Virus record (IMG/VR): IMGVR_UViG_3300025168_000047
Span: 25,423-89,422 of that record
Source: a virus
Strand: one strand, 5' to 3'
DNA: 64,000 nt
Notes under the pieces: model-generated
Told to the model about the DNA's origin: nothing
Seen by the model: the letters and a program-made list of their open reading frames with translations, nothing else
Database searches by the model: none
Position numbers and translations under genes: made by a program
In this document: positions 48,671 to 55,936 of the stretch, in pieces
Position numbering within the stretch: position 1 is the stretch's first letter
Layout of the letters: every line of letters begins with the position of its first letter

Positions 48671-51600
48671 ATGGCTGAAAAAAAGTTTAAGTTTGTTTCA
48701 CCGGGGATCTTCCTCAGCGAAGTTGATAATTCACAAAACCCCAATGCGGGCACGGCCCCCGGACCAGTGATCATCGGTCGATTTGAGCGCGGCCCCGGAA
48801 TGCGCCCAACAATAGTAAATTCCTTTTCTGAATTTGTAGAAATTTTCGGAAATCCAATCTCAGGTAAAGGAACAACAGACGGCGACGTTTGGAGAAACGG
48901 TAACTACCTTGCTCCTACATACGCTGCTTATGCTGTCCAAGCTTGGTTGAGAAACAACGCTTCTTGTACCGTTATTCGTCTTCTTGGAGCAGAGGATCCC
49001 ACAGCAGTTGCCTCTGGAACAGACGGCGCAGCCAATACCGGCGGAAAAGCTGGTTGGGATATGGGTAATGTCGGTTCATCTGCACCAGACGGAGCATATG
49101 GACTTTTTGTATTTCCAAAGTTTGAGATCCTCTCCACAGCAGCCGCCACTCCACACACTGGAACATTGGCAGCTATCTTTTATGTAAATCACGCCTCTAC
49201 AACATTGGCGCTCACGGGTACAGCAAGATCCACCTCAGGAAAGGTGCCTGCAATGTTCCCAACAGCTTCGCACGGCGCACTTCTTGTTACTTCTAGTGCA
49301 AATGCAAGTGGACAGTTTACAATGGCTGTTGGAACTCAAGCTGAGATCGCAACTGCAAACAGCGTTGGTGCAAAGAAAATTGAGTTCAACTTCAACGAGA
49401 ATTCAGAGAAGTTTATTAGAAAGGTATTTAATACTAATCCTGCAAAGGTTAACTCTAATGCTTACTCAACTACAGAAGCATACTTCTTAGGCGAAACCTT
49501 TGAGCGACAACTTCTCGATCAACAACGTGGTGGCGCAGGTAAGCACGGTGGAGCCGCCGCAGACGGTGGCTTCGGTTTCGGCGTCGGTGAGGCCGGAACA
49601 GGCTTGTCGACACTGAACAACATTGGTGCAGCAGCAATGCTTCCTTTGAAATCTGTTGGTGGAAGTTACGATTGGGCTGATCATACTCGCCCAATGCAAT
49701 CTGGCCGCACAGGCTGGTTTGTAGCTCAACATCAGGGTGCAGCAGCAACTTTCAATGCTCACCAACTTCAAAAATTATTCAGATTACACTCTTTGGAGCC
49801 CGGTGAATGGACACAAAGAAATCTTAAGGTTTCTATCCAAGATATCAAGCCTCCTAAATCGGCAGCACTGGGAGTCCCTCAGTTCTCGACATTTACAGTT
49901 GTAATCAGAAAGATCGACGACAGTGACGCATCCCCTCAACTCGTAGAACGTTTCAGCGGATGTGATCTCAATCCAAATTCTGCAAACTATATTTGTAGAA
50001 AGATTGGTGATAAGTACGTTGAATGGGACAACACAAAAAGAGCATACAGAGAGTACGGAGCTTATAACAATATGTCAAAGTTCGTTACTGTTGAGGTTAA
50101 TGAAGTTGTTTCCAACGGAGACGCAGCAAATCTTATGCCTATGGGTATGTATGGACCACCACGTCCTAAAAAGATCGTTATCGGAACAGGAAGAAACATT
50201 GGTACCGAGTCTTGGGCTCTACACAACACAGGTTCTTTCTTGCCAACACACTTTGAAGGAGTTCAGAGCCCTGCAGCAATTGCAACCGGTGGCGGACTGT
50301 TCCAACTCGGTCTTACGGGTGCCCTGATTTGGCCACAACCAATTCTTCGCCACTCGAATACAGAGGATAATCTTCCAAAGAAGAACGGAGCATACTTCGG
50401 TGTGTCGACTTCTAAATCTGGTTCCGGTATCTTCGCTCCGAGTACAATAGATACTCTGAGAGCACTTCCTGCTGGCGTTGGTACAATGAACAGCGACTCT
50501 TCAAGAATCGTAACTGAAGGCGCAACATACGTTGAACCAGCTTTCATTTTCACGCTTGACAACTTGTCTGCTTCCGCAGATGGTTCCGGAGATGTTAAAT
50601 ATATTTCTGGTTCACGTACGGCTGGTCTTTCATTGACAGCCGTGAGTGGAACAAATGCTGTTCTTACCGGTAGTAGTCTCACCTACAACCGATTTACAAC
50701 TCTTTTCCACGGTGGGTTCGATGGCCTCGATGTTACAGAGAAAGATCCATTCAGAAATACAAGATTGGATGATAGTTCGGATGCTAAAGCAAACTATACT
50801 CTTTTCTCGGCACTTAGAGCTATCGATACTGCAAGAGACCCAGAATACGTTGAGTGTAACTTGATGACCATTCCGGGTATCACAAACAGCACTGTTACAG
50901 ATCATGTAATCGATATTTGCGAAGAAAGAGCAGACGCTCTCGCAATCATCGACTTGGAAGATGACTACGTGCCAGCACACGAAAGCACAGACACTGAGGC
51001 TACTCGTAAGCCAGATGTTGATACAGCAGTGCAAAAATTAAAGAATCGCCAGATTAACTCAAGTTATGGTGCAGCGTATTATCCGTTTGTACAGATTAGA
51101 GATTCTTTGGCTAATCAGTTATTGTTCGTCCCACCTTCAGTAGTAGGTTTGGGTACTCTCTCATACAGCGAATCAGTTCGCGACGTATGGTTTGCACCAG
51201 CCGGCTTCACACGCGGTGGACTTAGTGACGGTAAGATCGGTTTCCCAGTTGTCGGTGTAAAGCACCAGTTGACTTCTGACGAAAGAGATAAGCTTTATGA
51301 AGTAAACATTAACCCAATCGCTTCTTTCCCTGCAGAGGGTATCGTAGTGTTCGGTCAAAAGACACTTCAGGTTTCAGAATCCGCACTTAATCGAATTAAC
51401 GTACGCAGACTCTTGATCTTCCTTAAGAGAGAGATTTCTAGAGTTGCAGCAACCACATTGTTCGAACAGAATGTAAGAGCAACATGGAACGGCTTCTCTG
51501 CTCGCGTTGAGAGCATTTTGAATGACGTCAAGTCTCGCTTGGGCTTGGCTGACTTTAAGGTTGTGTTGGATGAAACAACCACCACACCAGATCTGGTAGA

Positions 51601-51706
51601 CAGAAACATTATGTACGCAAAAGTGTTCTTGAAACCAGTGCAAGCAATTGAATTTATCGCACTTGATTTTGTAATCACAGATTCCGGGGCTTCATTCGCA
51701 GATTAA
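48671..51706 (+). CDS. Contractile tail sheath protein (gp18-like)
   Basis: 1011 residues; AAAGGAGA upstream. The N-terminus (FVSPGIFLSEVDNSQ ... GPVIIGRFERGPG) and the conserved C-terminal sheath domain (FAPAGFTRGG, KLYEVNINPIASFPAEGIVVFGQKTL, NVRRLLIFLKREISR, MYAKVFLKPVQAIEFIALDF) are clear. The middle is enlarged relative to T4 gp18 (659 residues), adding surface domains rich in Gly/Ala/Ser. The protein polymerises around the tube and contracts at infection. It has its own motif and no terminator behind it; a second motif precedes the tube gene. Confidence 0.95.
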   Translation: MAEKKFKFVSPGIFLSEVDNSQNPNAGTAPGPVIIGRFERGPGMRPTIVNSFSEFVEIFGNPISGKGTTDGDVWRNGNYLAPTYAAYAVQAWLRNNASCTVIRLLGAEDPTAVASGTDGAANTGGKAGWDMGNVGSSAPDGAYGLFVFPKFEILSTAAATPHTGTLAAIFYVNHASTTLALTGTARSTSGKVPAMFPTASHGALLVTSSANASGQFTMAVGTQAEIATANSVGAKKIEFNFNENSEKFIRKVFNTNPAKVNSNAYSTTEAYFLGETFERQLLDQQRGGAGKHGGAAADGGFGFGVGEAGTGLSTLNNIGAAAMLPLKSVGGSYDWADHTRPMQSGRTGWFVAQHQGAAATFNAHQLQKLFRLHSLEPGEWTQRNLKVSIQDIKPPKSAALGVPQFSTFTVVIRKIDDSDASPQLVERFSGCDLNPNSANYICRKIGDKYVEWDNTKRAYREYGAYNNMSKFVTVEVNEVVSNGDAANLMPMGMYGPPRPKKIVIGTGRNIGTESWALHNTGSFLPTHFEGVQSPAAIATGGGLFQLGLTGALIWPQPILRHSNTEDNLPKKNGAYFGVSTSKSGSGIFAPSTIDTLRALPAGVGTMNSDSSRIVTEGATYVEPAFIFTLDNLSASADGSGDVKYISGSRTAGLSLTAVSGTNAVLTGSSLTYNRFTTLFHGGFDGLDVTEKDPFRNTRLDDSSDAKANYTLFSALRAIDTARDPEYVECNLMTIPGITNSTVTDHVIDICEERADALAIIDLEDDYVPAHESTDTEATRKPDVDTAVQKLKNRQINSSYGAAYYPFVQIRDSLANQLLFVPPSVVGLGTLSYSESVRDVWFAPAGFTRGGLSDGKIGFPVVGVKHQLTSDERDKLYEVNINPIASFPAEGIVVFGQKTLQVSESALNRINVRRLLIFLKREISRVAATTLFEQNVRATWNGFSARVESILNDVKSRLGLADFKVVLDETTTTPDLVDRNIMYAKVFLKPVQAIEFIALDFVITDSGASFAD

Positions 51707-51760: not shown

Positions 51761-52312
51761 ATGGGCAGTGATCAATTCTGGAATTCAACAAGCATAGAGC
51801 CAAAGCGTCAGCATAAATGGCTTGTATACTTGCATAATTCAAACATTCCATCTTATGTTGCAAGAAAGGTAGATAAGCCAAGCTTTTCCATCAACGAGCA
51901 ACAGCATAAATATTTTGGACATACTTTTAAGTATCCCGGACAAGTAACTTGGGATGATATCACTATGACCCTCGTTGATCCAATCGACCCAAATGTAAGC
52001 GACAAGCTTCAGGACGTATTGATAAACTCCGGATATCGCACTCCAGATAACCGCACAAACAACGCTCTCTATACTGTCTCTAAAGACTCTTCTGTAAAGG
52101 CTCTAGGCCCTATTGTACGAATTGAGCAGTATGGCACGCAACCCGGTATTGGCGCAAGCTCCGGCGAACCTTATCTTATTGAGGCGTGGCAAGTCTTCAA
52201 TCCTTGGATTAAAGATGTAAAGTTTGGTGAATTAACCTACGAAGATGACGGAATTGTCACTGTAGACTTAACAATTGCTTTCGATTGGGCTAAACTAGTA
52301 GACGTCAAATAA
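51761..52312 (+). CDS. Tail tube protein (gp19-like)
   Basis: 183 residues; CAGGAGAA upstream. Compact beta-type protein with the tube-family elements KWLVYLHNSNIPSYVARKVDKPSF, FKYPGQVTWDDITMTLVDP and a C-terminal VDLTIAFDWA strand. Size and position after the sheath gene match T4 gp19. It stacks in hexameric rings around the tape measure to form the conduit for DNA. Confidence 0.9.
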   Translation: MGSDQFWNSTSIEPKRQHKWLVYLHNSNIPSYVARKVDKPSFSINEQQHKYFGHTFKYPGQVTWDDITMTLVDPIDPNVSDKLQDVLINSGYRTPDNRTNNALYTVSKDSSVKALGPIVRIEQYGTQPGIGASSGEPYLIEAWQVFNPWIKDVKFGELTYEDDGIVTVDLTIAFDWAKLVDVK

Positions 52313-52327
52313 AAACTGAGGTGAAAA

Positions 52328-53170
52328 ATGGCTAGAAATAACGAGGACCGCTTGGGTACACCCGCCCCTGCTCCGCCAAACGTTATGGAAACTTCGAACA
52401 ACACTGCAGGAGATCAAATGTTTTCTTTTGTTACTCCCACTGAGTTTGTCGAACTTCCTTCAAAGGGTAAGTTTTATTCGGAAGGACATCCTTTACATAA
52501 TGTAGATACAGTCGAGATCCGATATATGACAGCTAAGGACGAAGATACTTTAACTTCACCTGCGCTGTTAAAAAAAGGAATTGCAATTGAGAGACTTTTA
52601 AAGAATGTTATTATCGATAAAAGTATTAATACTGATGACCTTTTAGTTGGAGATAAGAATGCAATCTTGGTTGCAACTAGAATCTCTGGCTATGGAGCAG
52701 GATATACAGCAAAGGTAACATGTACATCTTGTGCTACTTCTACGGACTATACTTTTGATCTTAACGAGGTCGACCAGAGTCTCCCTGAAGAGTTAGAGGT
52801 AAACGATGATGGCCTCTTCAACCTTAAACTACCTAAGATGGATGTTATGGTTGGCCTGAGTCTTATGACAGGTGCTGATGAAAAGCGATTAGTTAAGTTA
52901 GCAGAGAACCGAAAGAAGAAGGGTCTTCCAGAAGCTGTATTAACAGACCAATTCAGGATGATCATTCGATCAGTTAACGGCAGTCAAAACAACGAGCATA
53001 TCAATGCTCTAATTGAAAACATGCCAGCAACAGATTCAAGATACCTGCGAACTGCATATGCAGAGTTATCACCAAATGTGGACCTTACTCAAGATTTTGA
53101 ATGTCCAGAATGTAACATGCAGGAGGAGGTCATTATTCCGTTTACGACGGAGTTTTTTTGGCCTAAGTGA
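52328..53170 (+). CDS. Baseplate/tail assembly chaperone (gp26-like, T4_baseplate type) with zinc knuckle
   Basis: 280 residues. The family start (TPTEFVELPSKGKFYSEGHPL, then TVEIRYMTAKDEDTLTSPALL) is that of T4 gp26-like baseplate proteins. Cys pairs CTSC (around residue 132) and CPEC (around 260) probably bind zinc. The last codons run over seven T residues (53153-53159) and the frame stops three codons later. The next frame continues without a start codon for 60 residues, suggesting that part of the protein is extended by frameshifting, as in tail chaperone pairs of other phages. Placement shortly before the tape measure supports a tail-chaperone role. Confidence 0.75.
   Translation: MARNNEDRLGTPAPAPPNVMETSNNTAGDQMFSFVTPTEFVELPSKGKFYSEGHPLHNVDTVEIRYMTAKDEDTLTSPALLKKGIAIERLLKNVIIDKSINTDDLLVGDKNAILVATRISGYGAGYTAKVTCTSCATSTDYTFDLNEVDQSLPEELEVNDDGLFNLKLPKMDVMVGLSLMTGADEKRLVKLAENRKKKGLPEAVLTDQFRMIIRSVNGSQNNEHINALIENMPATDSRYLRTAYAELSPNVDLTQDFECPECNMQEEVIIPFTTEFFWPK
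53153..53159 (+). other. T7 run, candidate +1 (or -2) programmed frameshift site
   Basis: TTTTTTTGG: the zero frame reads TTT TTT TGG CCT AAG TGA. A +1 or -2 slip of the tRNA on the second TTT re-pairs with TTT and enters the frame encoding GLSEKYAKNLYEQ. No start codon serves that frame. A homopolymer sequencing error would look the same. Confidence 0.5.
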
Positions 53171-53342
53171 GAAGTATGCTAAAAACCTATATGAGCAGTT
53201 TTTCTTTCTGAAATACCATGGAGGCTGGAGTTTCGCAGAAGCTTACAGTTTACCTGTCCGATTAAGAAACTGGTTTGCAGATAGACTTGTCAGCCAGATC
53301 GAAAAAGAGAATGAAGCTTTAAAGGATGCTAAACATAGGTAA
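53160..53342 (+). CDS. Frameshift extension / gp51-like small domain without own start
   Basis: About 60 residues (GLSEKYAKNLYEQFF, LKYHGGWSFAEAY, then LPVRLRNWFADRL and a charged helix) readable only in the +1 frame relative to the gene at 52328. No ATG, GTG or TTG precedes the conserved-looking part. The sequence is not a shadow: it extends 170 nt beyond the upstream stop, where no other gene is present. The LKYHGGWS and LPVRLRxWF pattern resembles small baseplate-assembly proteins placed here in related phages. Most likely translated as a fusion with the gp26-like protein. Confidence 0.55.
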   Translation, partial: GLSEKYAKNLYEQFFFLKYHGGWSFAEAYSLPVRLRNWFADRLVSQIEKENEALKDAKHR

Positions 53343-53746: not shown

Positions 53747-55936
53747 GTGGCAAATGAAAAAGACATCAATCTCCAAGAAAGGCTAAATAAGCTTCTTCAA
53801 CAGAAGGCGGGTTTAATCAAACAAATTGCTGATGCTGAGGCAAAACAGTCTGCTAAAGCCGGCGAGTATGTAACTAAAACACAGAAGGCAATGAAGGTGG
53901 CTCAAGATAGAGCCGCTCTTGCCGAAAAGATTCTTGAGTTCGAAGAGATGTCAATTGATGAGCGCAACAAAGACCTTGCTAACGAAGGAAAAAGAATTGC
54001 AAACTTGAAAGCGAGAAACCTGCTTACGAAAGAAGAGGCTGATCTACAAGAACAGATTCTACTTGCAAAAACTCAGATCGCTCAGAACGAAAAAGATGTG
54101 ACTGACGAGATGAAGCAACAACTTCAGCTTGCAATCGATTTAAAAGATAAGAAAGAAGAGCAAAAAGACGCCGCTGACGAAGAAAAGGCAAATCTCCTTA
54201 GCAATCTTGATACTTTGGGAGGCATGGTTGGTCTAACCAGTACTCAAACTACTCTTTTTGGGAAAATGGGAAGCTCTGTTAAGAGTATTGGAAAGTTACT
54301 TTCAAATTCTGAAACAGATATGGCTGATATGGCTAAGAACGCAGCAAAGCTCGGAGGAGACTTAGCCTTAGGTACAGTCATCGCCAGATCAGAAGAACTC
54401 TTTACTCTTCAAGATGGCATAATTGCAAATTTCCGAGCAACAACCGGCGCATCAGCCCAGACAGCAACCGCAATTGCCGGCGCTTCAAACGAATTGCGTC
54501 AGATGGGTTTAGATATGACCTCTGCCGGCGTAGCTGGTGAAGCTTTATATAATAGTGTAACGGCTTTTAGAACAGCCACTCCAGAAGCCCAAAGAGAAGC
54601 AGCCGCATTTACTGGATTGTTGGTGGAACTCAACATTGATGCCAACACCGCAGCCGATGCAATGCAAACATTGACTATGGGAATGGGCCAGAGCTTATCT
54701 CAAGCTCAGGCGACGACCGAAGAGTTATTGCATTTTGCGAATTCTATTGATGTTAATGTTAACGAGGCTTTAGACAACTTTGCTAGACACTCTGACGAAT
54801 TAGTTGCTCACGGTGGCGATGTGGTGGCTGTATTTAAGCAATTACAAACTCAATCTCGCTTAACAGGAATTTCTATGGATTCTTTGATGTCCGTCGCCGG
54901 CCAATTTGATACCTTTGAAGGTGCAGCTAGTGCAGTTGGTAGATTAAATGGTATTCTCGGTGGTCCTTATTTAAATTCTATTGAAATGGTTTATATGACT
55001 GAGGCCGAGAGATTAGAAGCGATGAAACAGACTCTCGAAATGTCCGGACGCTCTTTTGATAGCTTAAGCAGGTACGAGAAAAAAGCTCTTGCAGCAGCCG
55101 GAAGCTTTACAAGTGTCGGAGAGGCCCAGCAATTCTTTAACAGCCAATTGGATGATCCTAAAACAATTGAAGCAAAGCGTCGTCAAGAGAGCCTTACAGA
55201 TCAAGCTCGTAAAATGAAACCTATAATGGAAAGACTCAGCTTGGCGATGAATAAGTTTGCATTTAGCATGGAACCTGTTATTAATTTTGCCAGCAGGCTT
55301 GTAGAAGGCTTTGCGGATATGAGCACCGGCGGAAAGGTCTTCGCTGGTGTGTTATTTATAGGGATACCGATGGTCTTAAAAATGACGAAAGCTTTAATGG
55401 GGCTAAGGCTTATGATGTTGCAAACCGCAGCCGCACAAGCAACCCTCGGAGCGGCCAAAGGATTGGGCGCACTCGGTATGTTGGGGTTAGGAGCAGCCGG
55501 AATCTTAGGCGGTGGATTGCTTGCAGCCGGAATCTATGGAGTCTCTCAGATGTTCGCTAATGGAACCGACTCAGCACCAATGACCGGCGCAGCCCTTATG
55601 GGAGAGAAAGGCCCAGAACTTTTGGTTGGTTCCTCTGGATCTAGAATGGTCGGAGCGTCTGGCCCCGCGATTAGCGGAATCAATAAAGGCGACAGAGTTA
55701 TCACTAATGCAAACCTTAAGAAAGGTCTTGGCGGAGGTGGCCCAACCGTTGGAGCTATGAAGGCTGCTTTCAAACAAGCATTGCAAGAAATCAACAGCGA
55801 ACAAGCTGCCGGCCAAAAGAAAGTGCAAACAGGTACTGTGCCTGTTGTTATGCAGGTTAATAACAGAGAGTTAGGAAGAGTTGTCTTAAAGATTATCGAG
55901 GATTCAAATTCCATAAAACTTTCTCCATCGACCTAG
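53747..55936 (+). CDS. Tail tape measure protein
   Basis: 729 residues; GTG start with a strong AAGGGGGG 8 nt upstream. The N-terminal about 160 residues are coiled coil (Lys/Glu/Gln/Leu). A helical middle and hydrophobic Gly/Ala/Leu stretches (around residues 545-605, LGLGAAGILGGGLLAAGIYG) follow. The end carries GEKGPELLVG and NKGDRVITNANL, widespread at tape-measure C-termini. It is threaded inside the tube, sets its length and leaves ahead of the DNA. The length is short for a long tail, but T4 gp29 (590) is also short. Confidence 0.8.
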   Translation: MANEKDINLQERLNKLLQQKAGLIKQIADAEAKQSAKAGEYVTKTQKAMKVAQDRAALAEKILEFEEMSIDERNKDLANEGKRIANLKARNLLTKEEADLQEQILLAKTQIAQNEKDVTDEMKQQLQLAIDLKDKKEEQKDAADEEKANLLSNLDTLGGMVGLTSTQTTLFGKMGSSVKSIGKLLSNSETDMADMAKNAAKLGGDLALGTVIARSEELFTLQDGIIANFRATTGASAQTATAIAGASNELRQMGLDMTSAGVAGEALYNSVTAFRTATPEAQREAAAFTGLLVELNIDANTAADAMQTLTMGMGQSLSQAQATTEELLHFANSIDVNVNEALDNFARHSDELVAHGGDVVAVFKQLQTQSRLTGISMDSLMSVAGQFDTFEGAASAVGRLNGILGGPYLNSIEMVYMTEAERLEAMKQTLEMSGRSFDSLSRYEKKALAAAGSFTSVGEAQQFFNSQLDDPKTIEAKRRQESLTDQARKMKPIMERLSLAMNKFAFSMEPVINFASRLVEGFADMSTGGKVFAGVLFIGIPMVLKMTKALMGLRLMMLQTAAAQATLGAAKGLGALGMLGLGAAGILGGGLLAAGIYGVSQMFANGTDSAPMTGAALMGEKGPELLVGSSGSRMVGASGPAISGINKGDRVITNANLKKGLGGGGPTVGAMKAAFKQALQEINSEQAAGQKKVQTGTVPVVMQVNNRELGRVVLKIIEDSNSIKLSPST

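Follow-up and report, generated by a model that had tools for sequence, protein, structure and literature searches.

How does a phage gene carry on into a conserved domain that lies in a different reading frame and has no start codon of its own? The locus that raises this question sits in an 89 kb IMG/VR virus contig of a contractile-tail phage, of which a 64 kb stretch (the window) was analysed. Between 52328 and 53342, as an earlier note on this DNA had correctly placed them, a gp26-like gene ends just past TTTTTTTGG, and beyond it the +1 frame encodes a domain of some 60 residues (Table 1). That note took the arrangement for a programmed frameshift, a reading to which the comparison of related loci lends strong support. 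It is highly probable, in our view, that the phage, whose tail is contractile, uses programmed +1 ribosomal frameshifting to express its tail assembly chaperone here, and the seven-T junction very probably serves as a genuine translation signal and does not stem from a sequencing error. What the analysis reads directly is the layout and how far it is conserved, the variants of the slip site, the gene order, and the homology that links both parts to T4 gp26 and gp51.

Table 1 Features of the probable chaperone locus and its neighbours, in window coordinates
Feature	Position	Strand	Basis or description
Tail sheath protein	48671..51706	+	PF17482, E 2.2e-8
Tail tube protein	51761..52312	+	PHROG 4542, E 2e-23
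gp26-like protein, 0-frame product	52328..53170	+	280 aa; PF12322 and PHROG 150 matches
GGAGGAGGT, Shine-Dalgarno-like	53122..53130	+	Sequence; ends 22 nt before the T run
GGAG	53149..53152	+	Sequence; abuts the T run on its 5' side, 3 nt before the second Phe codon
T7 run	53153-53159	+	Sequence
Slip site TTT TTT TGG	53153..53161	+	9-mers of 95 dereplicated loci
3' end of the 0-frame ORF			Sequence; GAG TTT TTT TGG CCT AAG TGA
0-frame stop TGA	53168..53170	+	Two sense codons past TGG
C-terminal domain, +1 frame, startless	53160..53342	+	About 60 aa; predicted three-helix; conserved in relatives
+1-frame reading			TTT TTT GGC CTA AGT GAG ... TAA at 53340-53342
+1-frame continuation	to 53342		FFGLSEKYAKNLYEQFFFLKYHGGWSFAEAYSLPVRLRNWFADRLVSQIEKENEALKDAKHR
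114-aa ORF			Downstream of the gp26-like/domain locus, along with the 729-aa ORF
729-aa ORF, probable tape measure protein	53747..55936	+	Position and length

Organisation of the locus

The domain had been described as startless, and this holds in the window, where the sole ATG, GTG or TTG of its frame is a TTG at 53013, deep within the gp26-like gene. Translation with a one-base forward slip gives a product of 337 aa. The + strand of the window contains two T7 runs (53153 and 62631) and a single copy of TTTTTTTGG, at the junction between the gp26-like gene and the domain. The order of genes (sheath, tube, gp26-like gene, long tape-measure-like ORF) is similar to that around lambda G/GT. The 729-aa ORF found no family match in profile searches that included tape-measure families; the gene in its position in Flavobacterium phage immuto is annotated as tail tape measure.

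Likely counterparts of T4 gp26 and gp51

The gp26-like protein matches Pfam PF12322 (T4_baseplate) with 64.3 bits (E 1.7e-17), passing the curated cut-off of 24.5, and PHROG 150 (baseplate hub) with E 4.6e-21. The 60-aa domain scores 25 bits (E 1.9e-5) against PF20546 (DUF6760), below the curated cut-off of 27, and is probably related to that family, though not a filed member. Actinobacterial DUF6760 genes (L203, L207, L209, L212, L218) follow an ORF with a Cys motif, in the -1 frame; some actinobacterial loci carry GGGGGAA at the junction together with an overlapping ATG or GTG, and L209 and L212 are without such a start.

T4 gp26 and gp51, listed as hub assembly chaperones (PMC3004832), are both full-length PF12322 paralogues, gp51 adding a C-terminal extension. 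In profile comparisons the +1 domain matches cyanophage gp51 (probability 97.7%, E 1.7e-12), which in turn matches the C-terminus of T4 gp51 (probability 98.7%, E 4e-16), and none of 100 column shuffles came near either score. Compared directly, the T4 gp51 C-terminus and the domain gave a weak match initially and an hhalign E of 6e-5 with more sequences; their homology is clear only through the cyanophage gp51 bridge. When modelled separately, the domain (AF2 pLDDT 90.7; helices H5-22, H26-31 and H34-60) and gp51 have the same predicted three-helix layout. A Foldseek search with the domain returned nothing at E below 0.001, P-HM1 gp51 ranking fourth (E 0.21, TM 0.73/0.83), a match too weak to be used alone, and PDB sequence searches returned nothing useful. 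Since the profiles join the domain to the T4 gp51 C-terminus, and given the gene order, the gp26-like product is most likely a short tail assembly chaperone and the fusion a long one, the counterparts of T4 gp26 and gp51, respectively. The earlier link to tail chaperones upstream of tape measures was right and can be refined to this T4 pair. In Citrobacter phage Moon (L225:8607-10245), gp27-gp28 is annotated as a 'GT-like fusion' tape measure chaperone, which conflicts with the gp26/gp51 role.

Conservation of the out-of-frame layout

Among close relatives (80 IMG/VR sequences plus the window), the domain lies in the +1 frame in 79 of 81 and in the -1 frame in two. It is in +1 at all 80 immuto-type loci, a set comprising L082 and 79 fetched sequences (L125, which ends before the junction, was left out), and in 12/12 copies from bacterial and archaeal genome bins. 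Phages Mel-JY01, immuto, SP-15, LIS04 and GXN1 and the uncultured phage genome LR756508 share this layout, and RAS14 and XacN1 have a -1 layout at T TTT TTT. A layout that recurs in these sets and in other phages is not due to chance. Across isolates and numerous metagenomes, the related sequences that keep the domain out of frame number more than 170. The comparison of homologous loci proposed as a check therefore finds the layout conserved, and likewise the slip site, apart from +1-compatible variants. Relatives with both parts in one frame were sought and none was found in the window's group examined. In L009 (4840-4880) and L011 (6820-6860), which have eight Ts, the two parts are again out of frame, but the domain is in -1; this looks like a natural change of direction, unless the two share an error, and the direction of the slip is therefore not absolute.

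A tree places the window among eight +1 rows that form a well-supported group, and the larger group enclosing it also contains RAS14 and XacN1, both -1 phages; the duplicated genes of the T4 type fall into a single group. Scans of viral contigs yielded one locus with the SP-15 protein and none with the RAS14 protein. A relative with 46% identity and the same T7 site (L190:6001-6934) occurs in a 2.8 Mb WOR-3 genome-bin chromosome record, where it may be a prophage or a misassembly.

Slip site and candidate stimulators

Of 95 dereplicated loci, 66 have TTTTTTTGG as their slip 9-mer, 21 have TTTCTTTGG, four TTCTTTTGG, three TTTCTATGG and one TTTCTTTAC, and +1 re-pairing is possible at every one of them, from UUU to UUU or UUC, or from CUU to UUU. 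At one Phe codon of the site, all dereplicated loci of two families have TTT (53/53 and 46/46), as against a general TTT usage of 79% and 77% in the same families. At 98 of 99 dereplicated loci the second slip codon is followed by TGG, and at the other by TAC; the A site is thus occupied by a sense codon, not by the stop codon of prfB-type sites. The strictness of the CCT that follows the slip site arises in part because both frames code there. As in chaperones of the G/GT kind, a startless C-terminal extension in another frame overlaps a conserved slip site.

Two elements in the window are candidate stimulators, the Shine-Dalgarno-like GGAGGAGGT and the GGAG abutting the T run (Table 1). The spacing of the latter to the second Phe codon, 3 nt, is that of the prfB +1 site. 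Anti-Shine-Dalgarno complementarity exceeds that of synonymous shuffles at positions -30..-14 (z -11.7, 95 relatives) and again at -6..0 among members of the window's family (z -8.9), z-scores that overstate significance because relatives are not independent and kinship inflates them. No conserved RNA structure was detected downstream (mean z -0.33, versus -0.20 in a control stretch), and an Rfam search for a downstream stimulatory structure gave no match.

Alternative explanations

Sequencing error, a -2 slip, transcriptional slippage and an independent start were each tested, and each was rejected or made unlikely by the relatives' loci. The main alternative raised at the outset, an error in sequencing or assembling the homopolymer, draws on the error-prone nature of T runs on some platforms. 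It is excluded for practical purposes, its probability being negligible, because relatives, genome bins and isolates have the same out-of-frame layout: the frame is the same across the more than 170 related sequences, and interrupted runs keep it. Interruption also bears on transcriptional slippage, in which mRNAs one U short (or with two extra) would be translated normally. The window does have a T7 homopolymer at the junction, but 29 of the 95 dereplicated sites are interrupted, with at most four Ts together, and have the same frame layout, which renders this explanation highly improbable. A -2 frameshift, known for phage Mu (PMC5009743), would end in the identical frame with one more Phe, and the window's T7 run by itself permits it. 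Loci with TTCTTTTGG, TTTCTTTGG or TTTCTATGG decide the choice, because they keep the +1 layout and permit +1, whereas a -2 slip of the Mu kind would place tRNA-Phe on UCU or tRNA-Leu on UUC. Of the two directions originally offered, +1 is upheld, and -2, barred at these variants, is improbable.

Very unlikely, too, is that the domain is a separate gene, translated from its own start codon or by reinitiation past the upstream stop. Some relatives do have a start in the right frame, accompanied in 18 of 95 by a Shine-Dalgarno-like sequence, so that separate starts are possible in some of them; an ATG overlaps in LR756511, cyanophage P-HM1 has an ATG, overlapping starts occur at some actinobacterial DUF6760 loci, and a Shine-Dalgarno-like element precedes the slip site. 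Against this, no start lies close to the domain in the window, start positions are not conserved across relatives, and at 24 of the 95 loci there is no ATG, GTG or TTG between the preceding +1-frame stop and the domain; in the same analysis the +1 frame may become open as little as 2 nt ahead of the slip site. A conserved start belonging to a separate gene, which would have told against frameshifting, is therefore lacking among the relatives.

Proposed mechanism and relation to known systems

In the +1 frameshifting that we favour, most ribosomes would terminate at the stop of the gp26-like gene, having made the short chaperone. Others would move one base forward with peptidyl-tRNA-Phe on the UUU ahead of UGG (UUU_UGG), since UUU, or UUC in some relatives, offers the tRNA a codon to pair with again, and would resume at GGC to make the 337-aa fusion with its predicted three-helix C-terminal domain. 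By analogy with lambda gpG and gpGT, the role of the short form may be to coat the tape measure protein, and that of the fusion to recruit tail-tube subunits. Slippage itself, its efficiency and the assembly function are what we infer from these comparisons. Counting against the model are the absence of a conserved RNA structure, the sense codon in the A site, the -1 frame of L009 and L011, and the unmatched 729-aa ORF.

The arrangement can be set beside several known systems. T4 gp26 and gp51 likewise comprise a short PF12322 form and a long one ending in the same domain, but are encoded by two separate paralogous genes, whereas the window has one gene with an out-of-frame extension. The 2022 abstract of Vladimirov and colleagues reportedly names genes 26 and 51, with frameshifting said to be retained in several T4-like groups. 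T4-like phages are described as carrying a short gene alongside a longer one for the fusion (Vladimirov, Gautam & Davidson 2022, as cited via PRFect, PMC10885494). Cyanophage gp26-gp51 of the P-HM1 type is similar in that the gene for a short protein runs up to a T-rich slip site, where a homologous domain of about 55 aa continues in another frame, but there the frame is -1 in 77/77 loci, at T TTT TTC or T TTT TTA, in contrast to +1 at TTT TTT TGG in the window. Straboviridae phages Va3 and Ah1 and Sinorhizobium phage phiM19 have a -1 layout like the cyanophages. Cyanophage gp51 (L231-L310; L230:8677-9557) is annotated as a separate gene, yet lies in -1 after the conserved T TTT TTC/A heptamer; it is often without a start codon, and a short inverted repeat (CCCTC...GAGGG) comes next in many.

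In lambda, gpG/gpGT likewise has a C-terminal extension added by frameshift to a chaperone encoded close to the tape measure (PMC5009743), but the slip is -1, and the likeness to the window is one of layout. Atkins et al. (2016, PMC5009743) describe wide conservation of G-T frameshifting in long-tailed phages, with T4 as the exception. Mu also has a tail frameshift, but of -2, and the G-T protein of halovirus HSTV-2 is a likely +1 case, likened to the window by mechanism alone (PMC5009743). Bacterial prfB (RF2) resembles the window in its P-site slip on a pyrimidine-U-U codon before U and its upstream Shine-Dalgarno-like element; RF2 is autoregulatory and has a stop codon in its A site, whereas the window has a Trp codon there. 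Among RF2 genes, a minority naturally have UUU_U as their +1 site (PMC5009743).

Because PMC10885494 cites Vladimirov et al. 2022 on T4-like phages, the chaperone identity is already known. The +1 site and the depth of its conservation were absent from the literature searched, in which Vladimirov et al. 2022 was represented by citation alone, and what appears to be new is a +1 site with a sense codon (UUU_UGG) that is deeply conserved and accompanied by more Shine-Dalgarno-like sequence than synonymous coding leads one to expect. We lean slightly towards the view that an environmental clade of contractile-tail phages holds an undescribed natural class of bacterial sense-codon +1 chaperone sites, with mechanisms switching among relatives. 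If so, the class would be characterised by UUU_UGG or CUU_UGG and selected Shine-Dalgarno-like elements, with neither a stop codon nor a conserved RNA structure, and related phages would have switched between +1, -1, a separate start and gene duplication for one protein pair. Tail-chaperone frameshifts are usually -1, and a +1 site with a Trp A-site codon and no stop would be unusual, compact and testable; the same pair made by differing mechanisms would be a natural experiment on keeping a product ratio.

The analysis also corrects annotation: in the annotated isolates that were examined, the C-terminal part is absent, cut short or entered as a small gene of its own. In two isolate annotations (L082:3833-3943 and L085:3845-3964) the domain begins too late, giving truncated hypothetical proteins.
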